This document shows, piece after piece, positions 9,777-30,489 of a stretch of DNA of 64,000 bases. The stretch comes from Aequorivita sp. H23M31 (GTDB lineage: Bacteria; Bacteroidota; Bacteroidia; Flavobacteriales; Flavobacteriaceae). Each line of letters opens with the position of its first letter. The first letter of the stretch is position 1. The position numbers were made by a program, and so were the translations under genes. The stretch is from contig NZ_CP034951.1 of the NCBI RefSeq assembly GCF_004022485.1, positions 124,001 to 188,000 on the forward strand, read 5' to 3'. A model generated the notes under the pieces. That model saw only the letters and a list, made by a program, of their open reading frames with translations, made no database searches and was not told where the DNA came from.

Positions 9777-9840
9777 GTACAATAACAATATAAACGCCAT
9801 GAAAATTATGAATATGGCATGTATACACATGTTGCCCACA
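9777..9840 (+). repeat. attC-like site A (start of cassette array)
   Basis: Short version of the site that separates cassettes. An AAC core (9784-9786) is followed by an arm AATATAAACGCCAT, a 13-nt loop and the opposing arm ATGGCATGTATACACAT, then the R'-like core GTTGCCCACA (9831-9840). The two arms pair with few mismatches. The R' bases recur reversed after the next gene (10513-10522). Confidence 0.6.
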
Positions 9841-9863
9841 ATTTAAAAAAAAACCGTAAATCA

Positions 9864-10508
9864 ATGAAAATAAGTCTTTTAATCGGAATTTTATTTTGCT
9901 CGACAATTCTTGCGTGCGAAAAAGAAAACAATGACCGATTTATTTTCTTCCTTCACAATCGATTTTTAGAAGAACACGAATTAAATGAATTGCATCCCGA
10001 ATTTGGACGGACTGAATACAACGAAATTATTGCCGAGTTTGAAAATAGCGGATTTAAAGTAATAAGCGAAAAACGAAACGGGAACGTTAATGCAAGAGAA
10101 TACGCTATCGGAATTGTAACCCAAATCGACAGTTTAATAAAAAACGGAACAGAACCGAGAAAAATAACTGTGGTTGGAACTTCAAAAGGCGGATATATCG
10201 CTCAATACGTTTCTACTTTAACAAATAATCCAGATTTGAATTTTGTATTTATTGCAAGTTTTAGGAATAACGACATTCAAACTATACCCGAAGTCAATTA
10301 TTGCGGGAATATTTTAACGATTTACGAAAAGTCCGACCAATTTGGAGTTTCAGCATTGGAGAGAAAAAAAACTTCAACTTGTGAAATCAAACATTTTAAA
10401 GAAATAGAACTGAATACAGGAATGGGACACGGATTTTTATTCAAACCTTTAAAGGAATGGATTGAACCAACAATAAAATGGGCGAATGGGAATTACAACG
10501 TGGAATAA
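9864..10508 (+). CDS. Lipoprotein with alpha/beta-hydrolase fold (cassette 1)
   Basis: 214 residues from the ATG at 9864; an in-frame ATG at 9819 lies inside the attC-like site and is not used. The signal peptide ends in STILAC, a lipobox, so the protein is probably membrane-anchored. The mature part has the nucleophile elbow VVGTSKGGY (G-x-S-x-G), an upstream Asp/Glu-rich region and a late GMGHGF that could supply the catalytic His, giving a serine hydrolase layout. The stop is only 4 nt before the R''-like sequence, so the gene fills its cassette. Substrate unknown; no promoter fits in the 33 nt between cassette start and ATG. Confidence 0.8.
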   Translation: MKISLLIGILFCSTILACEKENNDRFIFFLHNRFLEEHELNELHPEFGRTEYNEIIAEFENSGFKVISEKRNGNVNAREYAIGIVTQIDSLIKNGTEPRKITVVGTSKGGYIAQYVSTLTNNPDLNFVFIASFRNNDIQTIPEVNYCGNILTIYEKSDQFGVSALERKKTSTCEIKHFKEIELNTGMGHGFLFKPLKEWIEPTIKWANGNYNVE

Positions 10509-10512
10509 AAAC

Positions 10513-10712
10513 TGTGGGCAACAACGTATATAGCTCATAGCTAATTAGTTGCCTAATCGAAGTTAAGGCATATTTGGAAGTCCGCCAAATTTTCTAATTT
10601 GGCTTATTGAAAAGAAAAGATAATAAGAAAATTAAAAAATTCGGCTCGTGCTTAACCGAATAGTTATCGCTAATTTGCACGCTACGAGCCATATACAAGA
10701 CCGTTACCTGTA
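10513..10712 (+). repeat. attC-like site B
   Basis: Begins with TGTGGGCAAC (10513-10522), the exact reverse complement of the start of cassette 1 (9831-9840), and ends in GTTACCTGTA (10703-10712), the start of cassette 2. Outer arms GTATATAGCTC and GAGCCATATAC pair with one mismatch. Inside, GCCAAATTTTCTAATTT (10584-10600) can pair with AAATTAAAAAATTCGGC downstream (15 of 17) or with its own adjacent half to form a local hairpin. Confidence 0.8.
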
Positions 10713-10724
10713 ATTTGAAAAAAA

Positions 10725-11168
10725 ATGCTCGAAATCGAATATATAGTTGAAGATGCAGGTTGGGCTGGCTGTAGAATAAATAACGGCGAAACAGTTACGG
10801 AATGTGATGTTTCGTATTTACACGATACGCTTTTGGAATTGGCACAATCTGCACTTAAAATCCAAAATAGAAATGATGCGTCTGTGGTTTTTATGAGTGA
10901 ACCTGGCGAACATAAATTAATCCTAAATAGAATTAATGAAACGGATATTGATTTTGAACTTCGTTGGTATTCTGATTGGGCCAGTTGGGGAATGTATGAT
11001 GAAAATGATTTTGAAATTATGCAGAGCGGAAAAACTACTGTTGCTAAATACATTAATCAAATACGAAACTTAATGTTAAAAATAATGGACGAAATTGGAA
11101 CGGAATTATATAAAGAAAAATGGGTTAGTCACGAATTTCCAATAGCGGAATTTAATCAACTGAAGTGA
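10725..11168 (+). CDS. Unknown cytoplasmic protein (cassette 2)
   Basis: 147 residues, acidic, with no signal peptide or membrane segment. Trp-rich patches (RWYSDWASWGMYDEND) and alternating strands and helices suggest a small globular alpha/beta protein. I do not recognise the family; cassette-borne proteins of this size are often immunity or antitoxin-like, but nothing here shows it. The ATG is 22 nt after the cassette start and the stop 6 nt before the R''-like sequence, so no own promoter or terminator fits in the cassette. Confidence 0.75.
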   Translation: MLEIEYIVEDAGWAGCRINNGETVTECDVSYLHDTLLELAQSALKIQNRNDASVVFMSEPGEHKLILNRINETDIDFELRWYSDWASWGMYDENDFEIMQSGKTTVAKYINQIRNLMLKIMDEIGTELYKEKWVSHEFPIAEFNQLK

Positions 11169-11174
11169 AAAAAC

Positions 11175-11369
11175 TACAGGTAACAATGTATAAAAAAAAT
11201 AGGGCAAGTAAGTGCTAAACTCAATGTTTCAGGCTTATTTGCGAGGTCGCCAAATCTTTTGATTTGGCTTTTAGAAAAATAATTTAAAACAAAATGCAAA
11301 AGATTTGGCTTGTGGATAATCCGAAAAGTAATTGCTTATTTACAGCCCTACTTCTTTTATACTAAACGT
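11175..11369 (+). repeat. attC-like site C (interrupted at its right core by IS1182-type element)
   Basis: Starts with TACAGGTAAC (11175-11184), the exact reverse complement of the start of cassette 2. Outer arms GTATAAAAAAAATAGGGC and GCCCTACTTCTTTTATAC pair closely. The central stem GCCAAATCTTTTG (11249-11261) pairs with CAAAAGATTTGGC (11297-11309). The right core AACG is split by an insertion sequence; its missing part, GTTCTACACC, resumes at 13045. Confidence 0.82.
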
Positions 11370-13042
11370 CAGACTGCGCAATAACCTCCCTATCTTGATA
11401 ACTTTGTTGATTACCTTTTAGTGCATTGCCCAGATCACATTAAGATATTGGCTATCTTGATGTTATGGAATTTATAACAGGATTTAATCGGGACCAATTG
11501 GTAATGATGGACTTTGAGTCTTGCGTAGGGCTGGAGTCCTGGGCGCGTACCGTTGATATGTTCGTGGATATCCTTCCTATGGAGGAACTGGGCTATAGGG
11601 ACGTGCTCAACTCCGAGGGAAGGCCTCCCTACCATTCGTCGGATATGCTCAAGCTCTATCTCTATGGGTACAAGAACAGACTTCGCTCCTCACGCCAAAT
11701 GGAACACGCCTGCAAGGTCAACCTTGAGGTGATCTGGCTCTTGAAGGGACTGCGTCCCTCGGCAAGGAAAATCGCTTACTTCAGAAAGGACAATGCCGCG
11801 GCCTTCAAACTGGCCTTTAGGCATTTTGTGGGGCTGCTCAAGGAATGGGAGCTCATAGAGGGTGCGACCATCGCCATAGACTCCTTCAAGATCAGGGCGC
11901 AGAATGCCCAGAAGAACAACTTCAACCAAAAGAAGCTGGACCGCCATATTGCCTACATCGACGACAAGATCAGGGAGTACCAGGACAGGCTCGATCAAGG
12001 GGATGGAGTTGTCGGTGAACAGCAAATCGAGTCGAAGATTGCATACCAAGAATCAAAAAAAGAGAGGTACCGCAACATAGAAAAAAAGCTGCAGGAAAGC
12101 GGCGAGAGCCAGATCAGCCTTACCGATCCCGACGCAAGGTCCGTAATCCTGCACCGCAACATCATCAACGTGGGCTATAACGTACAGGCAGGCTGCGATG
12201 CAAAGCACAAGCTCTTCGTGAACAACGATACCGGGAGCGTGAACGACACCCACGCCCTCTCACCCATGGCACTGGACGCCAAGGAACTCCTGGGTGTGGA
12301 AAGCCTGGACATCCTTACCGATAAGGGATACACCACCGCCAAGCATCTGGATATCTGCACCAGGAACGGGATCACGCCCTATTCCTCACCCAAGGACCAT
12401 TCTTCGCACCACAACGGACGCTATCCCATGGTGGATTTCACGTACGATAAAATAAAGGATACCTACACCTGTCCGGCGGATCAGGTACTGGCCACCAATG
12501 GAAGTATCTACGATAAGGCGGGCCACAAGGTCAAGCACTACAAGAACAGGAAGGCCTGCGGGGCATGTCCCGTCAGAGCGCTGTGCACCACAAACAAGAA
12601 CGGGCGCTTTATAGAGCGCTCCATTTACCAGGAGGCTCTGGACGAGAACCAAAAAAGAGTAGAAGCAAGACCAGAATATTATAGGCTCAGGCAACAGGTA
12701 ACAGAGCACCAGTTTGGGACACTGAAAAGGCAATGGGGTTTTACCCATACATTGATGAGGGGGAAACAAAATGTACTCTCCGAGGTTAACCTGATGATGA
12801 TCTGTTATAACCTCACCCGGCTTATGACCATTCTGGGCCCAGAGGTATTGAAAAACAGGCTGAAAAGGCTTGTGCCCGGATTTTCGGCCCTATTTGAAGC
12901 GATTTTGGCCCACATGAACAGCTTTCTTTTACCACCCAATACCTCTCCAAATTTTAAACCTACAAGAAATAAAGTCCTAACGGCTCTCTAAATAGCAATT
13001 GATTCATTAGTTTTAATCCGAATTGAGTTGATGCACAGACTC
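11370..13042 (+). mobile_element. IS1182-family insertion sequence, copy 1 (intact), inside attC-like site C
   Basis: About 1673 bp with one intact transposase. Terminal repeats CAGACTGCGCAATAAC and (reversed right end) GAGTCTGTGCATCAAC match at 12 of 16 positions. The tetramer ACGT occurs on both sides (11366-11369 and 13043-13046), consistent with a 4-bp palindromic target duplication. Removing the element restores TATACTAAACGTTCTACACC, an unbroken attC-like core. Confidence 0.9.
11465..12991 (+). CDS. IS1182-family DDE transposase (intact copy)
   Basis: 508 residues. The catalytic Asp residues sit in AIDSFKIRAQNAQKNNF and DKGYTTAKHLD, and the Glu in TEHQFGTLKRQWGFTHT; a Cys-rich stretch (TCPADQV...CGACPVRALC) lies between, as usual for IS1182 proteins. 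The gene is intact and nearly identical to the frameshifted copy at 16142-17669, so the two copies separated recently. GC content (about 50%) is far above that of neighbouring cassette genes. Confidence 0.93.
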   Translation: MEFITGFNRDQLVMMDFESCVGLESWARTVDMFVDILPMEELGYRDVLNSEGRPPYHSSDMLKLYLYGYKNRLRSSRQMEHACKVNLEVIWLLKGLRPSARKIAYFRKDNAAAFKLAFRHFVGLLKEWELIEGATIAIDSFKIRAQNAQKNNFNQKKLDRHIAYIDDKIREYQDRLDQGDGVVGEQQIESKIAYQESKKERYRNIEKKLQESGESQISLTDPDARSVILHRNIINVGYNVQAGCDAKHKLFVNNDTGSVNDTHALSPMALDAKELLGVESLDILTDKGYTTAKHLDICTRNGITPYSSPKDHSSHHNGRYPMVDFTYDKIKDTYTCPADQVLATNGSIYDKAGHKVKHYKNRKACGACPVRALCTTNKNGRFIERSIYQEALDENQKRVEARPEYYRLRQQVTEHQFGTLKRQWGFTHTLMRGKQNVLSEVNLMMICYNLTRLMTILGPEVLKNRLKRLVPGFSALFEAILAHMNSFLLPPNTSPNFKPTRNKVLTAL

Positions 13043-13056
13043 ACGTTCTACACCAT

Positions 13057-13530
13057 TTGAAAAAAACAATCGTCATATCATTATTATTAGGATTTCTAAT
13101 TAGTTGCGGAAATAGCAAAGCCGTATCTGACATTAAAAAGTACGTAATCCAAATTGATAACCGAACTGACTTGACAGAATTGATTTCTGAATTTAAACCT
13201 GAAGAACTGAAAACTGATCTAATTAATGAAGTTGCTATTCAGGTACTAAAAGACTCTGATGAAAAGATTTTTAAAGTGTCCGCAGAGTTGGTTCAAAAAG
13301 ATGGGATTCCTTTAAAATATATATTTTATTTTAAAAATGAAGTTCTAAATTTTGCGAGAATGACCGAATTTAATCAAACTGGCAAAGACACCGTAATGGA
13401 TAGTGAATATTATTTTGATGGATCCGAATTATTAAAACAGATTAATAGAAAAAAAGAGGAAATGGAAGCGGAAACCGTTAGACAAGTATCGGAATTTTAT
13501 CTAGTCTATGGAAAAGAAGCAACCGATTAA
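13057..13530 (+). CDS. Small lipoprotein, unknown function (cassette 3)
   Basis: 157 residues starting at a TTG codon (13057), 12 nt after the cassette core GTTCTACACC; there is no ATG upstream, and the TTG is followed directly by KKTIVISLLLGFLISC, a complete lipoprotein signal with lipidated Cys17. The mature part is charged, with strand-helix alternation and a C-terminal helix (KQINRKKEEMEAETVRQVSE). Family not recognised. With only 12 nt between core and start, transcription and ribosome loading must come from the upstream attC-like site or beyond. The stop is 4 nt before the R''-like sequence. Confidence 0.75.
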   Translation: MKKTIVISLLLGFLISCGNSKAVSDIKKYVIQIDNRTDLTELISEFKPEELKTDLINEVAIQVLKDSDEKIFKVSAELVQKDGIPLKYIFYFKNEVLNFARMTEFNQTGKDTVMDSEYYFDGSELLKQINRKKEEMEAETVRQVSEFYLVYGKEATD

Positions 13531-13534
13531 AAAC

Positions 13535-13669
13535 GGTGTAGAACACTGTGTATAGCTCATTGCGGGTGAATTCCTCATCGGAATTCATTGCATTTTTACT
13601 ATCTTCGGTTATTAGGGAAAAGTCCGTTGACTTTTCCCGCAACGAGCCATACACTAAACGTTACCCTTT
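13535..13669 (+). repeat. attC-like site D
   Basis: Begins with GGTGTAGAAC (13535-13544), the exact reverse complement of the start of cassette 3 (13045-13054), and ends with GTTACCCTTT (13660-13669). The outer arms GTGTATAGCTCATTGCGGG and CCCGCAACGAGCCATACAC pair over 19 positions with two or three mismatches. A perfect internal hairpin GGGAAAAGTC-CGTT-GACTTTTCCC lies at 13615-13638. It is the shortest complete site of the array apart from site A. Confidence 0.83.
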
Positions 13670-13690
13670 ATTAAAAATAACACTCGTCAA

Positions 13691-13723
13691 TTGTTCAACA
13701 TTAGAGAACTAATTGTATATTTG
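13691..13723 (+). promoter_or_regulatory. Likely promoter and operator of higBA
   Basis: A TATATTTG box (13716-13723) fits the Bacteroidota -7 element TAnnTTTG, with TTG at 13691-13693 22 bp upstream as -33. The box overlaps inverted sequence (ATTGTATATTTGTACAAT), a plausible HigA operator. This is one of only two cassettes with enough leader for a promoter of its own. Confidence 0.5.
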
Positions 13724-13739
13724 TACAATAATTGAACGG

Positions 13740-14036
13740 ATGAAACGAATAATTGCAAAAAGTACACTTCGCGAATATTGGGAAAAACACGCTGATTCCG
13801 AACAATACTTGAAGACCTGGTATGACACCGCGAAAAGTGCTGAATGGTTTTCTCCCAACGACGTCAAACAAACTTACATCAACGCAAGTATCTTAAAGAA
13901 TGGTCGAGTGGTTTTCAATATTAAGGGAAATTCTTACCGTCTTGTTGTTAAGTTCAACTATGAAAAACAATGGGCATTTATCCGGTTCATTGGAACTCAC
14001 ACGGAATATGATAAAATAAATGCTGACACGATTTAA
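13740..14036 (+). CDS. higB: HigB-type mRNA interferase toxin (cassette 4)
   Basis: 98 residues from ATG 13740 (an upstream in-frame ATG lies inside the promoter). It matches the HigB family of RelE-like ribosome-dependent mRNA endonucleases: N-terminal helices with W-E-K-H and W-Y-D-T, the strand block VVFNIKGNSYRLVVKFNY, and the C-terminal FIRFIGTHTEYDKI that is the family hallmark. The antitoxin follows 3 nt after the stop, in the toxin-first order typical of hig loci. Expression is probably repressed by HigA acting on the palindrome at the promoter. Confidence 0.92.
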   Translation: MKRIIAKSTLREYWEKHADSEQYLKTWYDTAKSAEWFSPNDVKQTYINASILKNGRVVFNIKGNSYRLVVKFNYEKQWAFIRFIGTHTEYDKINADTI

Positions 14037-14039
14037 AAA

Positions 14040-14417
14040 ATGATTATGGAATTAAAGCCTATTAAAACTGACAAAGATTACCGAGACGCACTTGAACGCT
14101 TGGAAATCATTTTCGATGCACCTATCAATACCAAAGAGGGCGACGAAGCTGAAATACTATCGTTATTAATTGAAAACTACGAAAATGAACATTATCCAAT
14201 TGACGCACCTGACCCAATCGAGGCGATAAAAATACGAATGAAAGAATTAAATATGCGCCAAAAGGATTTAGTTGGAATAATCGGCGGGAAAAGTCGAGTA
14301 TCAGAAATCCTCAATAGAAAGAAAAAGTTGACTGTCGATATGATACGAGATTTGGAAAGAATACTTCAGATTTCAGCTTCAGTTTTGGTAAGTGCTTATC
14401 AACTCGAAAAGAAATAA
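14040..14417 (+). CDS. higA: HigA-type antitoxin with HTH domain (cassette 4)
   Basis: About 125 residues. The N-terminal half (KDYRDALERLEIIFDAP, EILSLLIENYENEHYPI) is the HigA-type helical toxin-binding part; the C-terminal half holds an XRE-like helix-turn-helix (RMKELNMRQKDLVGIIGGKS, then RVSEILNRKKKLT). The pair makes a complete type II toxin-antitoxin module. The stop codon is 1 nt before AAAGGGTAAC, the cassette end. Such modules stabilise cassette arrays in integrons, which agrees with the setting. Confidence 0.92.
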   Translation: MIMELKPIKTDKDYRDALERLEIIFDAPINTKEGDEAEILSLLIENYENEHYPIDAPDPIEAIKIRMKELNMRQKDLVGIIGGKSRVSEILNRKKKLTVDMIRDLERILQISASVLVSAYQLEKK

Positions 14418-14418
14418 C

Positions 14419-14430
14419 AAAGGGTAACAA
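14419..14430 (+). repeat. attC-like site E, left fragment (R''-like core)
   Basis: AAAGGGTAAC (14419-14428) is the exact reverse complement of the start of cassette 4 (13660-13669). The rest of this site resumes at 15864, the two parts being separated by an IS110-type element. Confidence 0.78.
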
Positions 14431-15718: not shown

Positions 15719-15863
15719 GAACGTGATTTAAGTAGTAAAAGAGCGGGGATTATCAATGTTGTCGAAGTCTAAAGCTTCACTGTATAAAGTAACCTTACTC
15801 CGCTCTTTTGTTCTTTCTGATTTATACTGAAAGTTAACTGATTTATTAAAAATCAAACTTAAG

Positions 15864-16046
15864 ATGTATAAAAAAAATAGGGCAAGTAAGTGCTAGACCC
15901 AATGTTTCAGGCTTGTTTGCAAGGTCGCCAAATCTTTTGATTTGGCTTTAGAACAAAAATATAAAACAAAATGCAAAAGATTTGGCTTGTGTATAATCCG
16001 AAACGTAATTGTTTATTTACAGCCCTACTTCTTTTATACTAAACGT
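15864..16046 (+). repeat. attC-like site E, main part (right core interrupted by second IS1182 copy)
   Basis: Nearly identical to the body of site C: arm GTATAAAAAAAATAGGGC, central stem GCCAAATCTTTTG (15927-15939) pairing with CAAAAGATTTGGC (15974-15986), arm GCCCTACTTCTTTTATAC and core AACG. The core is broken by an IS1182 element at ACGT; it resumes at 17721 with GTTGTGCAAT. The site therefore carries two different insertion sequences, one at each core. Confidence 0.82.
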
Positions 16047-17720
16047 CAGACTGCGCAATAACCTCCCTTTCTTGATAACTTTGTTGATTACCTTTTAGTG
16101 CATTGCCCAGATCGCATTAAGATATTGGCTATCTTGATGTTATGGAATTTATAACAGGATTTAATCGGGACCAATTGGTAATGGTGGACTTTGAGTCTTG
16201 CGTAGGGCTGGAGTCCTGGGCGCGTACCGTTGATATGTTCGTGGATATCCTTCCTATGGAGGAACTGGGCTTTAGGGACGTGCTCAACGCCGAGGGAAGG
16301 CCTCCCTACCATTCGTCGGATATGCTCAAGCTCTATCTCTATGGGTACAAGAACAGACTTCGCTCCTCACGCCAAATGGAACACGCCTGCAAGGTCAACC
16401 TTGAGGTGATCTGGCTCTTGAAGGGACTGCGTCCCTCGGCAAGGAAAATCGCTTACTTCAGAAAGGACAATGCCGCGGCCTTCAAACTGGCCTTTAGGCA
16501 TTTTGTGGGGCTGCTCAAGGAATGGGAGCTCATAGAGGGTGCGACCATCGCCATAGACTCCTTCAAGATCAGGGCGCAGAATGCCCAGAAGAACAACTTC
16601 AACCAAAAGAAGCTGGACCGCCATATTGCCTACATCGACGACAAGATCAGGGAGTACCAGGACAGGCTCGATCAAGGGGATGGAGTTGTCGGTGAACAGC
16701 AAATCGGGTCGAAGATTGCGTACCAAGAATCAAAAAAAGAGAGGTACCGCAACATAGAAAAAAAACTGCAGGAAAGCGGCGAGAGCCAGATCAGCCTTAC
16801 CGATCCCGACGCAAGGTCCGTAATCCTGCACCGCAACATCATCAACGTGGGCTATAACGTACAGGCAGGCTGCGATGCAAAGCACAAGCTATTTGTGAAC
16901 AACGATACCGGGAGCGTGAACGATACCCATGCGCTCTCCCCAATGGCACTGGACGCCAAGGAACTCCTGGGCGTGGAAAGCCTGGACATCCTTACCGATA
17001 AGGGATACACCACCGCCAAGCATCTGGATATCTGCACCAGGAACGGGATCACGCCCTATTCCTCACCCAAGGACCATTCTTCGCACCACAAACGGACGCT
17101 ATCCCATGGTGGATTTCAGGTACGATAAAATAAAGGATACCTACACCTGTCCGGCGGATCAGGTACTGGCCACCAATGGAAGTATCTACGATAAGGCGGG
17201 CCACAAGGTCAAGCACTACAAGAACAGGGAGGCCTGCGGGGCATGTCCCGTCAGAGCGCTGTGCACCACAAACAAGAACGGGCGCTTTATAGAGCGCTCC
17301 ATTTACCAGGAGGCTCTGGACGAGAATCAAAAAAGAGTGGAAGCAAGACCAGAATATTATAGGCTCAGGCAACAGGTCACCGAGCACCAGTTTGGGACAC
17401 TGAAAAGGCAATGGGGTTTTACCCATACATTGATGAGGGGGAAACAAAATGTACTCTCCGAGGTTGACCTGATGATGATCTGTTATAACCTCACCCGGCT
17501 TGTATCCATTCTGGGACCAGAGGTATTGAAAAACAGGCTGAAAAGGCTTGTGCCCGGATTTTCGGCCCTATTTGAAGCGATTTTGGCCCACATGAACAGT
17601 TTTCTTTTACCACGCAATACCTATCCAAATTTTAAACCTACAAGAAATACAGTCCTAACGGCTCTCTAAATAGCAATTGATTCATTAGTTTTAATCCGAA
17701 TTGAGTTGATGCACAGACTC
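16047..17720 (+). mobile_element. IS1182-family insertion sequence, copy 2 (frameshifted), inside attC-like site E
   Basis: Same element as at 11370-13042, again flanked by ACGT (16043-16046 and 17721-17724). Excision in mind restores ACTAAACGTTGTGCAATA, an attC-like core. The transposase carries a one-base insertion, so this copy cannot move by itself, though the intact copy could act on it. Confidence 0.9.
16142..17669 (+). pseudogene. IS1182-family transposase, one-base frameshift
   Basis: Matches the intact copy (11465-12991) over its whole length with few substitutions. An extra A in CACCACAAACGG (about 17087-17093; CACCACAACGG in copy 1) shifts the frame after SPKDHSSHH, splitting it into about 320 and 190 residues. 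The second Asp lies before the break and the Glu after it. A sequencing error in an A-run cannot be excluded. Confidence 0.9.
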
Positions 17721-17753
17721 ACGTTGTGCAATATTTGAAGAAACAATTTTACT

Positions 17754-18776
17754 ATGAATAAACACTTTTTATTTTTATTATTATTAATTCCAAGTTTAAT
17801 TTTTTCTCAAAATGCCAAGGAAATAGCAAAGAAATGTATGGCTTCTACAGTTTCATTGGTTATGGAGGATAATTCCAAACAACCATTATCCTTAGGTTCT
17901 GGATTTATCATAGATGAGGGAAAAGTAATTACTAATTTACACGTTATTGAAGACGCCAATTATGGTTATGTAACTATAAGTGGGGAGTCCAGAAAGTTTA
18001 AAATTGAGGGATATTTGGCTGTCGATAAGATAAACGATTTGGTGTTATTGTCTGTTCCTACATTAATTGAAACAGCAATTGAAATTAATGAAAATAGTCC
18101 TGAGATTGGAGAAAAAATTTATGCAATTGGAAATCCAAAAGGTTTGTCTGGAACAATATCGGAAGGAATTATAAGTGGAATTAGAACTATCGACAAAACA
18201 GAACTTATTCAAATAACTGCACCTATTTCCCCAGGAAGTAGTGGTGGTCCAGTAATAAACAATGACGGCCAACTAATTGGGGTTTCAGTTGGAACCTTAG
18301 ATTCTGGTCAAAATCTGAATTTTGCTATTCCAACAAAATATGTCTCAAAATTAATCCAATTACCAAAAACTCAAATAACGCAATTGAACATTAAGTCTGT
18401 TGGTAAAAAAAACAATCAAAGTAATTCAGTAAAAGGGATAAAAGAAGGGATCGAAATAATAAATATTGAGTGGAGTGACGGCCATAATGCAAAAATGTTA
18501 GATGGGTTTTCAATTAAAAATAATATTCCATATACAATTACCAAAGTAAAGCTATTATTCATTTTGCGTAATGCACAAGGTCAAATGATTGATGCTTTTG
18601 AATGGTCAGATAGTAGTTTTAGCTTAGGCTCAATGAAATATGGAGATTATATCAAACCTTTTTTAGCGAAATATGTTTCATCTGTTACTGGACAATTAAA
18701 TTGGCAAAGAGTTTCAAAAAGAAAAACGGGGGAGAAACTTGAAATAAGAATATTGGATTTTTCAATTAAAGAATAA
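17754..18776 (+). CDS. Secreted trypsin-like serine protease (S1C/HtrA type) with extra C-terminal domain (cassette 5)
   Basis: 340 residues. A signal peptide ends near residue 18 (LIFSQ). The chymotrypsin-fold catalytic triad is complete: H63 in TNLHVIE, D95 in INDLVLL, S163 in PGSSGGPV. Unlike DegP/HtrA there is no PDZ domain; residues about 220-340 form a different strand-rich domain (IEIINIEWSDGHNAKMLDGF) that I cannot place. The next gene starts 15 nt downstream, and both lie in one cassette between GTTGTGCAAT (17723) and ATTGCACAAC (19338). Role could be protein quality control or an effector in defence or competition; the sequence does not decide. Confidence 0.85.
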   Translation: MNKHFLFLLLLIPSLIFSQNAKEIAKKCMASTVSLVMEDNSKQPLSLGSGFIIDEGKVITNLHVIEDANYGYVTISGESRKFKIEGYLAVDKINDLVLLSVPTLIETAIEINENSPEIGEKIYAIGNPKGLSGTISEGIISGIRTIDKTELIQITAPISPGSSGGPVINNDGQLIGVSVGTLDSGQNLNFAIPTKYVSKLIQLPKTQITQLNIKSVGKKNNQSNSVKGIKEGIEIINIEWSDGHNAKMLDGFSIKNNIPYTITKVKLLFILRNAQGQMIDAFEWSDSSFSLGSMKYGDYIKPFLAKYVSSVTGQLNWQRVSKRKTGEKLEIRILDFSIKE

Positions 18777-18791
18777 AAAACTTTAGGCATT

Positions 18792-19526: not shown

Positions 19527-19584
19527 GGCAAACATTCCCCACATAAAAATTTCTATTAATTTCTTGAGCTAACGGTAAGAACTC

Positions 19585-21188: not shown

Positions 21189-21229
21189 CGTTAGTCAGAA
21201 TTAAAACTCAAACTTCACAAATTTATAGA

Positions 21230-22324
21230 ATGGACTTAAAAAAAACACGAATTGAAGGAATGAAAATCTTCCAAGCAAGTCCTGATGCAATAAATAATCA
21301 AAGTGATGAAAGAAGGAAAATTGTAAAACAAGCCTTAAAAGAAAAACCCTTGAAAATTTGGGAAAGAGAGTTAAAACAACATAAATCAAATCTTTTCGTC
21401 TCAAACTCGGAGGGCGCTGTTTTTCAAGCAACCACTTTTTTCCATAAAAAGAAAATATTCGCAGGCATAGCACCGAACTTAATTCAGGCCTATTTCGATA
21501 TGGCTTACGAACAAATTCAATGGACTGATAAATATGCGGATACATTCCATTATATAGCATCCGAAAAGTTTGACGGAATAAAGTTTATTGACACACCAAT
21601 ATTTAATAGATTCGTTCAATATAGAATTAGTTCAATCATATTTTTGCATCTATCTGTTGAGGCTTTTATAAATTATATTATTCCTGATAATTTTATATAC
21701 TCCAAAACTGAAACATCAAACTCGAATAAATTTCAAGAACAAATAACAAAACTCAATAAGGAAAACATTGAGCGTTGGGTTAGCTTTAAAGAAAAAATTG
21801 AAGAAGTGATTCCAGAATTACCAAACATCACTTTTGACATTAAAAAAAATTTCGAAATAATTGGACGAATACTTGAGATTGAAACAATTCGAAATGAAAT
21901 TATTCACTTAAAAAGCAAAGACTCAAATTCGAATATGCACTATAAAAAAGTGTTTGACTTTGTCGCTTCAAAAGATTTAAACAAATATTTATTTTCAGTA
22001 AAAAAATTTATAAATATTTTGCAGTCGGATTTTATAAAAATTGATAAAATTCAAGAGAGCAATAACACCAAGGAGCTATATATCGAAAAGGCTGAACATC
22101 TTCACATAGGAGTTTACTTTGAAATTATTAAACAAAAAGAAAAACGAATCACCGTCTTTATTGATAAATGGCAGGGACTTACAAAAGAAAGTGAGTATTT
22201 AAAAGTCGTAATGTCTTATCTGAAATTAATGGAAGATATGAACTTAATAATGGATTACTTGATAAGTGAAGAGAGAAATAAATTCAGGATAGAGATATTT
22301 AAGAATGATGAACAAATAAAATAA
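21230..22324 (+). CDS. HEPN-like protein of unknown function (cassette 6)
   Basis: 364 residues from ATG 21230, no signal peptide or membrane segments. Residues 221-226 read RNEIIH, a fit to the R-x4-6-H motif of HEPN-type ribonucleases, in a helical setting (EIETIRNEIIHLK) and preceded by IIFLHLSVEAFINYII, a helix often seen in HEPN proteins. Such proteins frequently act in phage defence or toxin systems by cutting RNA; that is inference here. The gene starts 40 nt after core GTTAGTCAGAA and stops 1 nt before GTTGCACAAC. Those two do not match, so the cassette may be chimeric. Confidence 0.65.
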   Translation: MDLKKTRIEGMKIFQASPDAINNQSDERRKIVKQALKEKPLKIWERELKQHKSNLFVSNSEGAVFQATTFFHKKKIFAGIAPNLIQAYFDMAYEQIQWTDKYADTFHYIASEKFDGIKFIDTPIFNRFVQYRISSIIFLHLSVEAFINYIIPDNFIYSKTETSNSNKFQEQITKLNKENIERWVSFKEKIEEVIPELPNITFDIKKNFEIIGRILEIETIRNEIIHLKSKDSNSNMHYKKVFDFVASKDLNKYLFSVKKFINILQSDFIKIDKIQESNNTKELYIEKAEHLHIGVYFEIIKQKEKRITVFIDKWQGLTKESEYLKVVMSYLKLMEDMNLIMDYLISEERNKFRIEIFKNDEQIK

Positions 22325-22325
22325 C

Positions 22326-22453
22326 GTTGCACAACAAGGCATAAACGCAATAGCGGATAAGAGCAAAAACCAAAAGTGATTTTATAAATTTAAGGTCTGG
22401 TATAAACCGAAAATCAGTGCGTGAATCCCGCTACTGCGCTTATACTGGACGTT
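22326..22453 (+). repeat. attC-like site G (interrupted at its right core by IS110 copy B)
   Basis: R''-like GTTGCACAAC (22326-22335) is followed by arm AAGGCATAAACGCAATAGCGG, which pairs with CCCGCTACTGCGCTTATAC before the right core ACGTT (22449-22453). The central CCAAA...TTTGG stem seen in other sites is not evident. The left core does not complement the start of its own cassette (GTTAGTCAGA), unlike all other testable sites. Confidence 0.68.
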
Positions 22454-22529
22454 GTGGGCTATCCCACCTATACCCCACCATTGACTCCCAAAGCTAACGT
22501 TGCGCATTTACTTTTTTCATAAATTAGTG

Positions 22530-22690
22530 ATGCTCTTTGCAAGGCCGATTTTTCAACTGTTGCTCCCTCGGGAAGCACGAGCGCAATCCTGGTTGAGATG
22601 TTTGCGATGACTCCAGTGGCGGTGCCGATCTTTGGGCAACCCCGATCAGAATATTTACAAGCCAAAAGCACATCTCCTCAGAGCTATTTT
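22530..22690 (+). ncRNA. Candidate bridge RNA region of IS110 element B
   Basis: Aligns by eye with the corresponding region of element A at GCAAGGCCG, AACTG...GGTTGA.ATG, CAGTGGCGGT and AACCCCGATCAGAATA. The loop between the first two conserved blocks differs from copy A. I did not find a clear match between this loop and the left flank of element B, so only its position and shape support the call. Confidence 0.42.
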
Positions 22691-22703
22691 AAACTCTATA
22701 ACT

Positions 22704-24056
22704 ATGGAAGAAACTGTTTCAATGGAAATTGTCAATCCCCATGCTGCGGGAATAGACATTGGGAGCCGCTCACATTGGGTGGCCGTTGGCCAATCCGAAC
22801 CGGATGTTCGCGAGTTTGGCGTTTTTAATCAAGATCTTTTTGCCCTGGCCGATTGGTTGGATGAAAGGAAAATCATGACTGTTGCCATGGAAAGTACTGG
22901 TACTTATTGGCAAAATCTCTATGCAGTTCTTGTCGCTCGGGGTTTTCACGTAATCCTGTGCAATGGCAAGTTTACCAAGAACATCAAAGGAAAAAAAAGT
23001 GATGTAATGGACTGCCAATGGATACAAAAGCTGCACACTCTGGGACTGCTCAGCGGCAGTTTCCTGCCCGATGGACAGACCGAGCAGTTGCGCACCTATT
23101 GCAGGCACAGGTCCAATCTGCTCCATGCGGCAGCCTCTACCTCCAAAAAAATGCAGAAATATCTCAGACTGCTCAATTTCCGCTTGGATGTGGTAGTGAA
23201 GGATATCTGTGGCCTTACGGGACTTTTGATCATTCGCGCAATTTGCCAGGGGGAAAAGGATCCGCAAAAGCTTGCGTCACTAAGGCACGGCAACTGTCGT
23301 AGAAGTGAAGAGGAGATAGCCAGTGCTTTGCAATCAAATGGAAGAAAGGATTACCTATTCGCTCTTGGGCAGGAATTGGAGACCTATGACCACCTGCAAT
23401 TAAAAATAGGACAGTGCGACAAGGAGATAGCAAAAATGCTCGAGGAGATCATCGGTTCGGACGACAATAAGCGGGAGCACCACATTGATCCAAAACCCCA
23501 TAAGAGGATCAACAAAAACACGCCCAGGGAAATAGACCTAAACTTAAAGTCGTATCAGATGTTCGAGGGAACAGACCTATTGGCCATAGAGGGAATGAGC
23601 TACTCCACAGTTCTGGCACTAATGAGTGAGGTGGGAATCGAAGGGATCCGGAAGTTTCCAACCGCAAAACACTTTGCGAGCTGGTTGCGATTGGCGCCAA
23701 ACAATAAAGTAAGCGGTGGCAAGGTGCTATCCAGCAAAGTGCCCAAGGGTAGCAACCGTTTAAAAATTGCGCTACGCAATGACGCAAATGCCATAGGGAA
23801 CTTAAAAGAATCAACCCCATTGCGTGACTTCTTCCATCGTGTCAACTTTAGAAAAGGACGCGTATCGGCCATTAGTGCCACAGCACGAAAGCTTGCAGTG
23901 ATTATTTGGAACATGGTGGTCAAGGTACCCTATATAAATCCAGAAGGGTACCTATTCCTAGACCAAAAAAGAAAGCTGGGATTGGTGAAGCGTATAAAGA
24001 AACAAATCGATAAATTTGGTTTGACCAATGAAGATATAGGTTTTGTAAATACCTAA
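22704..24056 (+). CDS. IS110-family DEDD recombinase (copy B)
   Basis: About 450 residues from ATG 22704 (MEETVSMEIV), chosen because it aligns with the start of copy A; the frame is open further upstream through the candidate guide RNA. Catalytic blocks AAGIDIGSRSHW, AMESTGTYW, KSDVMDCQW and the C-terminal SWLRLAPNNKVSGGK / VPKGSNRL are all present. Intact frame. The stop is about 20 nt before the right edge of the element. Confidence 0.92.
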   Translation: MEETVSMEIVNPHAAGIDIGSRSHWVAVGQSEPDVREFGVFNQDLFALADWLDERKIMTVAMESTGTYWQNLYAVLVARGFHVILCNGKFTKNIKGKKSDVMDCQWIQKLHTLGLLSGSFLPDGQTEQLRTYCRHRSNLLHAAASTSKKMQKYLRLLNFRLDVVVKDICGLTGLLIIRAICQGEKDPQKLASLRHGNCRRSEEEIASALQSNGRKDYLFALGQELETYDHLQLKIGQCDKEIAKMLEEIIGSDDNKREHHIDPKPHKRINKNTPREIDLNLKSYQMFEGTDLLAIEGMSYSTVLALMSEVGIEGIRKFPTAKHFASWLRLAPNNKVSGGKVLSSKVPKGSNRLKIALRNDANAIGNLKESTPLRDFFHRVNFRKGRVSAISATARKLAVIIWNMVVKVPYINPEGYLFLDQKRKLGLVKRIKKQIDKFGLTNEDIGFVNT

Positions 24057-24102
24057 TAAACAATTAAATATAATACGTTAGTCAGAATTTGAAAAAAATG
24101 AA

Positions 24103-24393
24103 ATGACAACATTCAAAATCGATGGTAAGAAACTAACTGATTGGAATTCATTTCACTCTGAATTTAAATCCGAACTAAATTTTCCAGATTATTACGGAGA
24201 AAATATGGATGCTTGGATTGACTGTGTTGATAAATTAACCGAAAAGCTAACATTATTGCAAATTGAGAATGGTAAGTTTCTAAAAGAAAATAAACCTGAA
24301 TTACTAAATGCTATTTTAGAGTGTGGAGCTTTTGTCAATTATAGAAAAATAGAGCAAGGCGAAAAACCGAATTTAATAATTGCAGTTGATTAA
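24103..24393 (+). CDS. Barstar-family protein (cassette 7)
   Basis: 96 residues resembling barstar, the inhibitor of barnase-type ribonucleases: the segment LNFPDYYGENMDAWIDCVDK is typical of the family, with acidic residues that fill the RNase active site in barstar. No barnase-like gene is nearby, so this would be an orphan immunity protein guarding against incoming RNase toxins. The start is 26 nt after core GTTAGTCAGAA, and the next gene begins 3 nt after its stop, so the two form a unit. Confidence 0.85.
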   Translation: MTTFKIDGKKLTDWNSFHSEFKSELNFPDYYGENMDAWIDCVDKLTEKLTLLQIENGKFLKENKPELLNAILECGAFVNYRKIEQGEKPNLIIAVD

Positions 24394-24396
24394 AAA

Positions 24397-24684
24397 ATGA
24401 TTGTTCCTAATATAGAAATTGTAACAATATTAGTCGTAATATTTTTCGGATTTCCAATAATTTGGAATGCTCGAAAAAACGGACTTTGGAAATCCTTCAA
24501 CTTTATCAGACTGATAAATACAATTAATAATTCCTTAATAATTCAAGGAATAATCGGACTGATTTTAATTCTTCTGACTCGGTTATGGAGTTCAGCGAGC
24601 TTTAAATTTGACAGTTTTATTGCTGGAACAACTTATACATATCTAATAATCGGAATTTTTATGGTGTGTACTTGCAAAAGTTAG
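24397..24684 (+). CDS. Small membrane protein, probably truncated (cassette 7)
   Basis: 95 residues with about three hydrophobic segments (residues 8-22, 44-65, 78-92). The coding frame runs into the remains of an attC-like site whose left arm is missing (site H), so the C-terminus (VCTCKS) is likely made of sequence joined by a deletion. Function unknown; it directly follows the barstar gene. Confidence 0.55.
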   Translation: MIVPNIEIVTILVVIFFGFPIIWNARKNGLWKSFNFIRLINTINNSLIIQGIIGLILILLTRLWSSASFKFDSFIAGTTYTYLIIGIFMVCTCKS

Positions 24685-24727
24685 TACTAACCCACGCAAC
24701 TACTCATAGCCGAGACCGTTGTACCCT
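24684..24727 (+). repeat. attC-like site H (left arm deleted)
   Basis: ACTAAC (24686-24691), complementary to the first six bases of cassette 7 (GTTAGT), is joined directly to a right arm CCCACGCAACTACTCATAGC and to the next core GTTGTACCCT (24718-24727). The opposing left arm and central part are missing. Confidence 0.6.
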
Positions 24728-24882
24728 ATTTAAAGAATTAAAAGGTTAAAAGAAACAATTTCAGGACTAACCCTCCACTCAAAAGTTGGTGTATGTGTAA
24801 GCGAAAAATCAACTTAAAACAAACAGAGTAGCCGAAGAAGTGAAAATCGAAAGAGTAACATTTTTATAAACCTAATTTTATC

Positions 24883-26946: not shown

Positions 26947-26959
26947 ATTTGTACAACAA

Positions 26960-26993
26960 GAGCCGTATGATGGGAGACTATCACGTACGGTTC
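26960..26993 (+). ncRNA. Group II intron domain V
   Basis: 34 nt starting GAGCCGTATG and ending CGTACGGTTC; the ends pair, with a GAGA tetraloop in the middle and the catalytic AGC triad near the 5' end. Domain VI follows directly with a bulged A near CCTACTC. Confidence 0.85.
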
Positions 26994-27033
26994 CGTGAGA
27001 GGCTTAGGGTGAAACTCCCTTTGCCTACTCGAT

Positions 27034-28369: not shown

Positions 28370-29325
28370 TCGGGACAGGCTATGAAGGTAGATAAGCGTA
28401 GTCTGGATATCCGCATGCCCCAAGAGATCCTTTACGCTCATAATGTCCAGGCCCATTTCCAAGAGATAGGTGGCATAAGTGTGGCGCAGGATATGGGCGG
28501 TGATCTCCTTTGGGATCCCGCTTTGCTTGCGGGCCTCACGTACGATCCATTGTATTTCCTGTGAGGAAAGCTGTGCAGGACTGCCTGTTTTATCATTCTG
28601 ACTAACGTTTTTTAACTTTTTGATAATCAGTAGATTGAAAATCGATTATTTCCCTTTCTTTTGACTTCAGATTTTGCTAAACGTTAGCCTGAGGAGTCAA
28701 TGCTTTTGGAATATCTTGGATTGCCGGTAAAGCACCAGGTAGTGGGGTTTTCCGCCAAGAAGTACTTCCTTAGACCACGGATCTGCATCTCGGACAGGGG
28801 AACATACCGGTCCTTGCGGCCTTTGCCCTGGCGCACGTGCACCATCTTCCGGTCAAAGTCCAGGTCCCTGCACTGTAGGTTGCGGAGTCCAAAATTGCGA
28901 AGTCCACAACCATAGAGCATCGCAAGTACCAATCGGTGCTTGAGCAGTTTAGGGGTCTTCAGCAGTTGTTTTATCTCCCTTTGGTTCAACACAACGTGGA
29001 GTTTCTTGACACGTTCAATGCTCGGGAGCACCACGTGCATCTCTTTCATCCCGAAGATGCGGTAGGCATAGCGGAGCCATAAACGGTGTGCTTGAAAAGA
29101 ATGTCCGAGGGTGATTTGTGCTGGGACTTTAAAACGTGCAGATAGTCCAGCACCTGTTCCTCATCGAGGTCAAGTGGGCTACAGTTGAAGTGGAGTGCGA
29201 TGTGCGCCATGCAACGGGCATAGTTGGTAAGGGTGCTCTGGCTTTTCCCGGCGAGCTCGACGGAACGCTTTAGTTTTTGGTAGAGTGTGGCAAATTCCGG
29301 AACTGAAATACAGGCCCTTTGGATA
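28370..29325 (-). pseudogene. Tyrosine recombinase (XerC/integrase-like) broken by an attC-like insert
   Basis: N-terminal SAM-like part (VPEFATLYQKLKRSV, STLTNYARCMAHIALHFN), a frameshift near 29075, then the catalytic part: LAMLYGCGLR with the first Arg and QGKGRKDRYVPL with Lys. At 28687 the frame ends in attC-like site J; after it the gene resumes with HILRHTYATYLLEMGLDIMS (H-x-x-R) and GHADIQTTLIYLH with the nucleophile Tyr. All catalytic residues exist but in three pieces. It precedes the IS91 remnant on the same strand, a pairing common in Bacteroidota, so I do not read it as an integron integrase. Confidence 0.8.
28596..28697 (+). repeat. attC-like site J, inside the tyrosine recombinase gene
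   Basis: Starts with TTCTGACTAACG (28596-28607), complementary to the start of cassette 9 (27042-27053), and ends with GTTAGCCTGAGG. CTAACGTTT and AAACGTTAG form a perfect 9-bp inverted pair at its cores. Its inside (about 70 bp) does not resemble the other sites, so it may be a different type or be decayed. Confidence 0.55.
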
Positions 29326-29423
29326 AGGGTGTCATTTTTTTTTATAATATTGAGTATTAGATTAAATCCTATCCTAAAGGTGGTGAATCCTGATATTATT
29401 GTCCCGTGAAGCTACCTTTAGGT

Positions 29424-29616
29424 TTAGTTCAACATTAGCTATAAGCAATGCGGGATAAGTGCAAAACGCGAAAGCAGTTGTATATTTACGAAGTCGCCAA
29501 AACTTTTTGGGGATTTGAATTATAAAAAATTAAAGAACAAAAGTTTTGGCTTATTGCGAGCCCGAAAATGATTGCATTTTTGCCCCGCACTGCTCATAGC
29601 CGAGACGTTACAAACA
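29424..29616 (+). repeat. attC-like site K
   Basis: R''-like TTTAGTTCAAC, then arm GCTATAAGCAATGCGGG pairing with CCCGCACTGCTCATAGCC, ending in core GTTACAAACA (29607-29616). Central stem GCCAAAACTTTT (29496-29507) pairs perfectly with AAAAGTTTTGGC (29539-29550). The matching cassette start for its left core is not in the window, so the cassette before it has been rearranged by the IS91/recombinase remnant. Confidence 0.78.
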
Positions 29617-29636
29617 ATTAAAAACAAAAACTAACA

Positions 29637-30287
29637 GTGAAAAAAATTACTTTTATTATTGGATTAACATTATTGGCAACCAATATCTTCGGCCAAAATA
29701 CTTCCACAGAATATGGTTTAAAAGCTGGAATAAATTACTCAAAATATACTCCAAATATTGAGATTAAGGGAATTGACATCGTGGATTTTAATGGCAAGTT
29801 CGGCTTTTATTTAGGTGGTTTTGTCAATTTTGGCTTTTCTGACATTATAAAATTACAACCAGAATTAATTTTTGCTATACAGGGCACTAACACATCACAA
29901 GAAATTGAAATAAGGTTTTCTCCCCACCAAGAACCCGTCTTCGGAGAATTAAAAACAAGAATTACGGAATCAACTATTTCGATTCCAATTATGTTACAAA
30001 TATATCCAACGAAAAATTTTTATATTGAGATTGGACCACAACTTGGATATATCGTGAGCACGAAAGAAAAAGTTACGGATAACCCATTTCCGGAATTCGA
30101 AAGCCCTTTCGGAGCTAGTGAAGATTGTCCGAATTGTGATAAATTTGATTTGGGTGCATCTTTAGGAATTGGTTACAATTTTACAAGACTAATTGGAATA
30201 AACGCCAGATATTATGCTGGTCTAATTGAAAGAAATAAGACTATAAAATCATCAGTTATAAATTTAGGTATTAATTACAAATTGTAG
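29637..30287 (+). CDS. Outer membrane beta-barrel protein (cassette 10)
   Basis: 216 residues starting at GTG (29637): a signal peptide (MKKITFIIGLTLLATNIFGQ) followed by a barrel of the PorT/OMP_b-brl_2 type with alternating strands (YGLKAGINYSKY, FYLGGFVNFGF, NFYIEIGPQLGYIV) and a final strand ending in aromatic/hydrophobic residues (VINLGINYKL). Likely sits in the outer membrane; many paralogues exist in Bacteroidota with unknown roles. The start is 30 nt after the cassette core and the stop 6 nt before the R''-like end. Confidence 0.85.
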   Translation: MKKITFIIGLTLLATNIFGQNTSTEYGLKAGINYSKYTPNIEIKGIDIVDFNGKFGFYLGGFVNFGFSDIIKLQPELIFAIQGTNTSQEIEIRFSPHQEPVFGELKTRITESTISIPIMLQIYPTKNFYIEIGPQLGYIVSTKEKVTDNPFPEFESPFGASEDCPNCDKFDLGASLGIGYNFTRLIGINARYYAGLIERNKTIKSSVINLGINYKL

Positions 30288-30293
30288 AAAAAC

Positions 30294-30489
30294 TGTTTGT
30301 AGCACTGTATAAAAAAAATAGGACGGTAAGTGCCAAACCCAATGTTCCAGGTGTATTTGCGAGGTCGCCAAATTTTTAAATTTGGCTCATTAAGAAAAAT
30401 TATTAGTAAAAATTTAAAAATTTGGCTTGTGTTTAACCGAAAAGCAATTGCATATTTACAGCCCTACTTCTTTAATTCCAAACCTCAGA
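30294..30489 (+). repeat. attC-like site L (right core destroyed by an IS1182 remnant)
   Basis: TGTTTGTAGC (30294-30303) complements the start of cassette 10 (GTTACAAACA, 29607-29616) at 9 of 10 positions. The central stem GCCAAATTTTTAAATTT (30367-30383) pairs perfectly with AAATTTAAAAATTTGGC (30410-30426). The right arm GCCCTACTTCTTTAAT is followed by AAACC and then the left end of an IS1182 element. Confidence 0.8.

Follow-up and report, generated by a model that had tools for sequence, protein, structure and literature searches.

Background

Integrons are the textbook device for the one-by-one capture of genes, and the R box of their attC sites follows the consensus GTTRRRY. XerA, the archaeal Xer recombinase (NF040815), acts in chromosome dimer resolution. 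The authors of IntegronFinder had only cassette-less integrases from Bacteroidetes until one Salinibacter integron (PMC9024848), a Tenacibaculum genome is called integron-free by the same program (PMC10013915), and a Polaribacter phage is described with a CALIN, one attC site being recombined by IntI1 (PMC9892861). The insert specific to the integron integrase IntI is termed essential for integron function in another paper (PMC8138268). Spirochaete integrons are reported to have an integrase reversed relative to the usual integron (PMC9668308), and attC sites are reported as targets of IS1111-type elements and group II introns (PMC11187229, PMC7923331). For flavobacteria, a search of the open-licence literature gave no description of a cassette array associated with an integrase other than IntI.

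Here we analyse a window of 64,000 nucleotides from Aequorivita sp. H23M31 (Flavobacteriaceae; positions 124,001 to 188,000 of contig NZ_CP034951.1). Three arrays of gene cassettes in this genome very probably belong to an integron-like system, and one of them lies in the window. A gene-collecting system of this kind seems to be present in many flavobacteria, with an enzyme from a branch other than that of the known integron integrases.

Results and discussion

The window array begins with an attI-like head (9788..9833), described by the pattern ATATAAACGMCA-N22-TATANMCAT^GTT; like all array features below, it lies on the plus strand. Cassette 1 (9831..10702) has its R' at 9831, its gene at 9864-10508, the end of its R'' at 10522 and an attC-like site up to 10702. 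Checked base by base, its ends are complementary at 10 of 10 and 13 of 14 positions, and its protein has relatives at 75-88% in 22 flavobacterial records. Site B (10516..10709) scores 158.8 bits with R1, a covariance model of the attC-like sites among whose seeds it was included. Cassette 2 (10703..11368; gene 10725-11168, R'' end 11184) is followed by site C (11178-11374, 171.3 bits), whose core is split by an insertion sequence. Site D (13538-13666, 91.7 bits) joins cassette 3 (13045..13659; gene 13057-13530, R'' end 13544) to cassette 4 (13660..14428), which holds a HigB-type toxin gene (13713-14036) and an HTH gene (14040-14417), both typed by Pfam, with HTH_3 slightly under its cut-off. 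No R1 site was found downstream of cassette 4 (after 14428); an orphan site that has lost its left core lies at 15857..16051 (144.3 bits). Cassette 5 (17723..19523; R'' end 19347) combines a trypsin-like peptidase gene (17754-18776, Pfam) with a gene at 18792-19190 and ends in site E (19341-19530, 155.2 bits). Two remnants follow. Cassette 6 (21202..22450; gene 21233-22324, R'' GTTGCACAAC) has an insertion-sequence end in place of its own start and is followed by site F (22329-22457, 99.3 bits). Cassette 7 (24077..24730) carries a Barstar-like gene (24103-24393, Pfam) and an ORF (24397-24684), with the right half of a site visible by eye near 24690-24728, where R1 gives no match. Finally, site K (29427..29613, 182.2 bits) precedes cassette 8 (29607..30486), which encodes an outer-membrane beta-barrel protein (29637-30287, Pfam) and has its R'' end at 30303; site L (30297-30490, 167.6 bits) runs into a diverged copy of a transposon end.

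The original prediction listed seven window cassettes with complementary ends, and six of them hold. Five match at 10 of 10 bases and at 13 of 14 (9831/10522, 10703/11184, 13045/13544, 13660/14428 and 17723/19347), and 29607/30303 matches at 9 of 10 (11 of 14), its core being mutated to AGC from AAC. The second coordinate originally given for each cassette was the start of R'', and the true ends lie 9-10 nt further. The seventh pair, 27043/28606, was rejected as a cassette, because the supposed core belongs to the end of an insertion sequence: the position-11 mismatch is missing, neither flank has a site, and all five IS110-type copies examined have GTTAGTCAGAAT as their right end, which lies inverted at 28598. 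All six confirmed cassettes have an identical A/G mismatch at position 11, and five of them have an R1 site directly 3'. The predicted site length is matched by distances of 121-189 bp between cores, and the claim that the stop codon comes just before R'' is right in general, with a median of 15.5 nt from stop codon to the end of AAC, and wrong for 17723/19347. Between 8501 and 31500 there are 7 complementary 10-mer pairs (5 cassettes, 27043/28606 and the plainly chance pair 10809/11069), against 1.1 in simulated sequence (maximum 3 in 60 runs); the remainder of the window has 5. Because of this comparison with chance, 10-mer identity by itself is evidence of moderate weight, and adjacency to sites together with the larger test at 20 loci, given below, decides.

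Mobile elements are found at the site cores. A transposon (11366..13044, plus strand) with a DDE_Tnp_1_6/DUF772 transposase (11465-12991, Pfam) lies in the AAC/GTT core of site C, and a second copy follows the orphan site and extends up to 17722; all three left ends of this transposon in the genome fall within site cores. An IS110-type element A (19524..21201, plus strand; transposase 19809-21188, Pfam) interrupts a cassette a few bases after its start, and the three copies seen of this element, in the window and in a second locus (L047), are all at a site core, as are both copies seen of an IS110-type element B, of which the one at the core of site F spans 22461..24088 on the plus strand (transposase 22632-24056, Pfam). 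Domains V-VI of a group II intron were identified at 26958..27033 (plus strand; Rfam RF00029, 64.6 bits); its reverse-transcriptase ORF is at 25677-26324 and its apparent end, judged by eye, is at about 27041, beside GTT. This intron is the only one of six Rfam matches at E up to 0.5 in 8000-32000 to pass its gathering score, and the second array gave no Rfam match at E up to 0.1. Such insertions resemble those of IS1111-type elements and attC-targeting group II introns; the difference is that the targets here belong to a non-IntI system.

R1 detects 29 sites in this genome (E<1e-7), forming three arrays plus singles. In the window's family, R1 gave matches in 204 of 249 genomes, sampled from 235 genera and run with no negative-control genome; site numbers from these large searches are lower bounds, since 9-10 candidates were scored per genome. 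Two loci, L104 and L105, had no sites in a stricter rule-based scan of the arms; R1 gives few there. Complementary ends (6/7 or 7/7 variable bases) were seen in 111 of the 122 cassettes at 20 integrase-linked loci, against 2.7% of random pairs, and 11 cassettes break the rule; R'' and R' within one linear site are complementary in 5 of 104 cases. This supports the predicted integron-type relation, in which R'' pairs, in the circular form, with the R' of its own cassette. Outside the family, the ends are complementary in 12 of 17 cassettes from another class and in 6 of 8 from another family of the same class. About 14 bases at each end are complementary, apart from a single fixed mismatch at position 11, where 122/122 starts have A and the reverse complement of 106/122 ends has G opposite. 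These sites do not follow the attC R box consensus, positions 5-7 of R' not being RRY; in the paired starts and ends, position 5 is T in 48, G in 40 and C in 28 of 122, and position 6 is C in 64, G in 27 and A in 22.

Comparison also shows that the site forms a covarying hairpin. Eleven of 17 stem pairs are changed on both sides, and the covariation score is 0.497 compared with 0.130 after shuffling. One A.C pair of the top strand (G.T on the bottom strand) occurs in 29/29 sites and another in 21/29. Of 123 sites folded in silico in the circle form, 120 are more stable on the bottom strand, with a mean difference of 4.4 kcal/mol. Site D folds well on both strands (z -7.3 bottom, -5.8 top); the long site B, on its top strand alone, has no convincing excess of folding over shuffles (z -1.57).

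Cassettes of 567 bp and 640 bp are each present in two places as 100% identical copies, and four cassette copies in one genome (G014) are 96.6-99.8% identical. A cross-genus copy is 82.7% identical over 954 bp, from GTT to within 5 bp of AAC, with unrelated flanks. At the level of sequence comparison, these copies show that a cassette unit runs from GTT to the following GTT and that such units have been copied into new contexts, with the junction at the core; the duplicated cassettes break at GTT, as had been predicted for cassette breakpoints. The expectation that the ends are kept in homologues fails for most relatives of one cassette gene: among 22 (23 were fetched, and L168 was left out), both ends are kept at >=8/10 only in L147, L148 and L150, and most of the 22 appear decayed or outside arrays.

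There is no intact integron integrase within the window, in agreement with the original prediction. About 2.4 Mb from the window array, the same genome encodes a 368-aa tyrosine recombinase (C1:2516603-2517706) with one array directly behind it, and such integrases also lie beside arrays in relatives. The attI-like motif has exactly 3 matches in the 3.68-Mb genome, one per array head, and its reversed control has 0, the pattern being derived from the same three heads. In the window's family, 36-169 nt separate the integrase stop codon from the start of cassette 1 in 16 of the 20 loci, with both in the same orientation. From this position and from the motif shared within this genome, we infer an attI site beside the integrase, with a putative function. 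Linkage cannot be judged from the 20 loci used for the cassette counts, because these were chosen with integrase and sites both already listed. Among 20 integrase homologs taken without regard to sites, 15 have sites, and 81/81 of these sites are downstream on the integrase strand. The integrase homology search also recovers ordinary Xer-type proteins. The other 5 have no site within 8 kb: one contig ends about 200 bp past the gene, one locus misses a listed site by 0.6 kb and three are without explanation. A tyrosine recombinase gene in two pieces at 28367-29016 (minus strand) was considered as a lost integrase of the window array and set aside; in a comparison with the cassette integrase, the larger of its pieces reaches 49.6 bits, against at least 183 for array-linked proteins, with the caveat that a gene piece scores lower by nature.

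The array integrases do not have the 42-aa IntI insert. The distance from box I to HxxR is 91-92 aa in 21/21 array-type integrases (including L117, whose short contig piece carries no site) and 133 aa in 10 of 12 IntI proteins, 2 being not measurable. Three array integrases tested with TIGR02249 score 194-201 bits, below the 265-bit IntI cut-off. The same model gives only sub-threshold tyrosine recombinases in this genome, and no sampled member of the family has an IntI over the cut-off; elsewhere in the phylum, 84 of 296 genomes carry a true IntI. In a tree without a settled root, the 12 sampled IntI proteins, all from Bacteroidota, form their own group, separated from the array integrases by a branch with support of 100/99; the cassette-integrase side has 83/69 once the genomes' own Xer proteins are included. 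By sequence as well as by fold, the integrase matches 4a8e and 5hxy best, and with NF040815 the three proteins score 195.2, 198.2 and 221.9 bits, one of them over the curated cut-off of 220. XerA itself is not known for cassette arrays.

The original interpretation is supported, with corrections: one predicted cassette is spurious, an integrase is encoded elsewhere in the genome, and because this integrase is not an IntI, the system is not a conventional integron. Like integrons, it has tandem cassettes in one orientation, a folded site with an AAC end and a GTT start, R''/R' complementarity within the cassette, a favoured bottom strand (here in silico), an attI-like head beside a tyrosine recombinase, and IS110-type elements and a group II intron at the sites. 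Unlike integrons, it has an integrase with no IntI-specific insert and with an extra N-terminal domain, an array 3' of the integrase in the same orientation (in the window's family), sites of mostly 120-200 nt with ends of about 14 bases and a fixed A at position 11, and A.C/G.T marks in the inner stem in place of a GTTRRRY rule. The integrase orientation resembles that reported for the spirochaete integrons, whose integrases are IntI proteins.

An ordinary IntI, now or formerly, acting on unusually long attC sites of an integron or CALIN would account for the cores, the cassette-specific complementarity, the bottom-strand folding and the insertions at sites. True IntI does occur in the phylum, and a published classification describes the insert as essential, yet not fully conserved in its integron-like subgroup (PMC8138268). 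We nevertheless regard this as very unlikely, given adjacent integrases with no insert, with sub-cut-off scores and on a well-supported separate branch, the absence of above-cut-off IntI from the genome and the sampled family members, and the departure of R' from RRY. It is still less credible that the cassettes are small transposons, each bounded by terminal inverted repeats of its own, the hairpins being ends or terminators. The inverted-repeat ends and the copying of units would fit, but the ends vary between cassettes past GTT, the sites lie on one side and one strand, after the integrase, and transposon ends are not known to have a fixed mismatch like that at position 11. That the hairpins are transcription terminators or RNA elements, copied by homologous recombination between repeats, is equally far-fetched: their position shortly past stop codons and the folding of site D on both strands agree with it, but repeat crossovers would break inside hairpins, whereas identical copies break at GTT, and neither the complementary ends nor the confinement of A.C to the gene-sense strand and G.T to the other would be explained.

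We thus consider it very likely that this is a second type of integron, in which folded bottom-strand attC-like hairpins would be recombined by a XerA-like integrase. Each cassette is a gene or small operon followed by an imperfect palindrome of 120-200 nt, whose covarying hairpin is predicted to be stabler on the bottom strand; replication would resolve the recombination product. In the window's family the first cassette, directly behind the integrase gene, could share the integrase transcript. With an attI-like head but no integrase of its own, the window array would depend in trans on the integrase at C1:2516603-2517706. If so, a common family carries a gene-capture device in a form missed by IntI searches, and whether the supposedly essential IntI insert can be replaced becomes testable.

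It is also possible, though here we lean slightly to the negative, that cassette capture arose twice. A XerA-like lineage without the IntI insert may have evolved, or kept, its own folded-hairpin system, with the strand marked by fixed G.T/A.C pairs and not by extrahelical bases. Cassettes would be coupled to the transcript of the integrase gene in the window's family, and another class (family f23) would use a divergent layout. More than one lineage of recombinases would then have arrived at integron-type recombination, for which the IntI insert would be dispensable.

The extra N-terminal domain of the integrase is about 90 aa long; the fold searches used the full-length protein. The best PDB sequence match of this domain is 4o66, a weak match to HARP (E 0.16), and PF07443 (HARP) matches 1 of 14 members, also weakly (E 0.069). 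HARP may therefore serve as a weak lead for this domain.

Complementary ends of the cassettes

Judging from sequence, the cassette system of Aequorivita sp. H23M31 works like an integron; we infer recombination, the strand used and the function of attI. According to the original prediction, a cassette starts with GTT and a few specific bases (R′) and ends with their reverse complement closing in AAC (R″). Base-by-base comparison bore this out for five pairs at 10/10, with 13/14 over a longer span, and for the pair starting at 29607 and ending at 30303 at the predicted 9/10 (11/14). These six pairs have a mismatch in common, at position 11, where the start has A and the reverse-complemented end has G. 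The pair predicted at 27042/28596 (27043/28606 in our comparison) was rejected as a cassette: it matches at 11/11, but lacks the position-11 mismatch and has a site on neither side, and the matched word, GTTAGTCAGAA(T), forms the right end of local IS110-type copies (5 of the 5 seen). Word identity by itself is modest evidence for cassettes: seven 10-mer pairs were found versus 1.1 in simulations (at most three in 60 runs), and two of the seven are not cassettes.

In 20 loci selected for having integrase and sites both listed, the covariance model of the attC-like sites (R1) gave 165 matches. Opposite-strand shadows and matches cut by contig or stretch ends were removed, which left 150, and the loci supplied 122 cassettes of 150-4000 bp with both cores. 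At the seven variable positions the ends agree at 7/7 in 79 cassettes, 6/7 in 32, 5/7 in one and 3/7 or fewer in 10. The predicted pairing of R″ with R′ of the same cassette is therefore seen at 6/7 or 7/7 in 111 of 122, versus at least 6/7 in 2.7% of random start-end pairs and in 5/104 comparisons of R″ and R′ within one linear site. Start position 11 is A in all 122. The same loci and the own array together give 124 cassettes with ends of at least 9/10; the longest ORF runs forward in 98 of these and in reverse in 8, and in 18 it is shorter than 60 aa. The genes of the window array include a HigB/HTH pair (13713-14417) and a Barstar-like gene (24103-24393); a small gene pair without Pfam match lies at 27111-27627.

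Structure of the sites

Alignment of eight window sites predicted 15 pairs, nine of them with double changes, and R1, built from seven sites, has a 17-bp stem. In the own genome R1 gave 29 matches below 1e-7 and seven weaker ones (two being opposite-strand shadows), which fall in the window array, in arrays at 2.520-2.534 Mb and 2.603-2.616 Mb, and at single sites. Across the 29 sites, double changes occur at 11 of 17 stem pairs, paired cells amount to 84.6% versus 63.1% after shuffling, and the covariation score is 0.497 for the true structure versus 0.008-0.145 for slid structures; having been fitted to the structure, this alignment favours it, and the unfitted eight-site alignment gives the same stem. 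One stem pair is A.C in 29/29 sites and another in 21/29, which becomes G.T when the bottom strand is read. In silico, the bottom strand is the stabler in 120 of 123 circle-form sites (ends at least 8/10, length up to 260 nt) and the top strand in three, with a mean difference of 4.4 kcal/mol.

The integrase and its linkage to the sites

A 368-aa tyrosine recombinase (L046:1603-2709; genome 2516603-2517706) with Phage_integrase and SAM-like domains immediately precedes the second array of the genome. Its named relatives at 65-79% identity, mostly from Aequorivita, are annotated as tyrosine-type recombinase/integrase. The N-terminal ~90 residues are without Pfam match; residues 1-90 (L046:1603-1870) were modelled as strand-strand-helix-strand-strand-helix-strand, weakly resembling the HARP domain of SMARCAL1. 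Such a domain would suit a protein acting on folded single strands.

We took 20 integrase homologs by rank from the integrase search, below the rows already fetched as loci, skipping contig-edge rows and one already-fetched row, with flanks of 8 kb, or as much as the contig offered. At E up to 0.001, R1 has 82 matches around 15 of them. Apart from one opposite-strand shadow, all of these (81) lie downstream of the integrase and on its strand. Within at most 8 kb on each side, no match was found around the other five (L176, L178, L180, L187 and L190). In L178 the contig stops ~200 bp behind the integrase gene, and in L190 a site from the phylum-wide R1 search sits 0.6 kb beyond the fetched stretch; the absence in L176, L180 and L187 is without explanation. 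The 20-kb stretch L144 (G157:C1:1105001-1125000) carries an array of 13 R1 sites, in which four 822-bp cassettes have common ends GTTGTAAACA, and no cassette-type integrase.

Located by complementarity to the first R″, the start of cassette 1 follows the integrase stop by 36-169 nt in 16/20 loci and is 1071 nt from it in L102; L112 has no good match to the first R″, and the core is missing in L104 and L105. All three own-genome arrays are headed by an attI-like motif, ATATAAACGMCA-N22-TATANMCAT before GTT, which occurs exactly three times genome-wide; as the pattern was derived from these arrays, the new information is the absence of further copies. By eye, genomes G022 and G042 have a similar sequence at the same spacing.

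Relation to IntI and distribution

The nearest solved structures of the 368-aa recombinase are XerA proteins, and the integron integrase IntI4 also ranks high; where the IntI4 chain has ~60 residues, the recombinase has 17. Box I and HxxR lie 91-92 residues apart in 21/21 array-type integrases, compared with 133 in 10 of 12 IntI (two not measurable). Because the IntI feature is absent, we do not file the system among IntI integrons. A passage of one study reports that the IntI insert is incompletely conserved within its integron-like subgroup (PMC8138268). In a 32-protein tree IntI forms a single group (support 100/99), with the cassette integrases together on the opposite side, their own branch reaching only 83/69 once the genome's Xer proteins are included. 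On these comparisons, the relation of cassette integrases to IntI may reflect either convergence or common descent.

R1 (E at most 1e-4) is positive in 204/249 Flavobacteriaceae genomes and in 53 of 296 genomes of the phylum, of which 19 belong to the family, one to the order and eight to the class, and 25 lie beyond. Among 12 R1-bearing genomes outside the family, two (G402, G332) have no integrase homolog at 1e-25. IntI exceeds the cut-off in 84 of the 296 phylum genomes, one of them (G283) in the window's class and none in its family.

In f23, a family in another class, the integrases fall on the side of the cassette integrases, with a box I-HxxR distance of 91 in 4/4; their open frames of 282-335 aa are too short to include the N-terminal domain. 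The integrase is divergent from the array in 4/4 loci, which is the classic integron layout (L136-L140), and the end rule is kept in 12/17 cassettes. Two f23 genomes, G284 and G345, also carry a true IntI.

Mobility of the cassettes

The own array contains two 567-bp cassettes of 100% identity; their neighbours differ, and their breakpoints fall at GTT. Three further pairs are at 89.6-97.1% identity. Other genomes contain a 557-560-bp cassette in four copies (G014, 96.6-99.8%) and a tandem pair of 640-bp cassettes (G157, 100%). A G084 cassette (L102:7418-8366) is 82.7% identical over 954 bp to the cassette that heads the third own array (L047 reversed, from 745). The similarity begins at GTT and stops 5 bp beyond AAC, and the flanks are unrelated. 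Both the identical cassettes and this homologous copy agree with the predicted breakpoint at the core. The expectation that homologous cassettes keep their complementary ends held in part. Relatives of the window cassette 1 gene at 75-88% come from 22 flavobacterial records, and a further one, at 42%, from elsewhere; of the 22, only three (L147, L148 and L150) keep both ends at 8/10 or better and the other 19 do not. In L150 the two ends changed in concert, GTTACCCACA with TGTGGGTAAC.

Mobile elements at the site cores

Passages in two papers (PMC11187229, PMC7923331) describe elements targeting attC sites, which a DDE_Tnp_1_6 transposon, IS110-type copies and a group II intron resemble here. 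A pattern search of the own genome with up to three mismatches found three left ends of the transposon with the DDE_Tnp_1_6/DUF772 transposase (window 11366 and 16043; L046:15654). Since all three lie in AAC|GTT cores, this transposon seems to target attC-like sites. The three IS110-A and two IS110-B copies seen in the window and in L047 are all at cores, and the end of a group II intron seems to adjoin a GTT. Two different IS110-type elements have GTTAGTCAGAAT in common at their right ends (window 21190 and 24077; L047 reversed strand 4870, 8530 and 14554), a sequence that mimics a cassette start down to the A at position 11. On the minus strand, window positions 28367-29016 contain a split tyrosine recombinase gene; an IS110-end-like word separates its two pieces.
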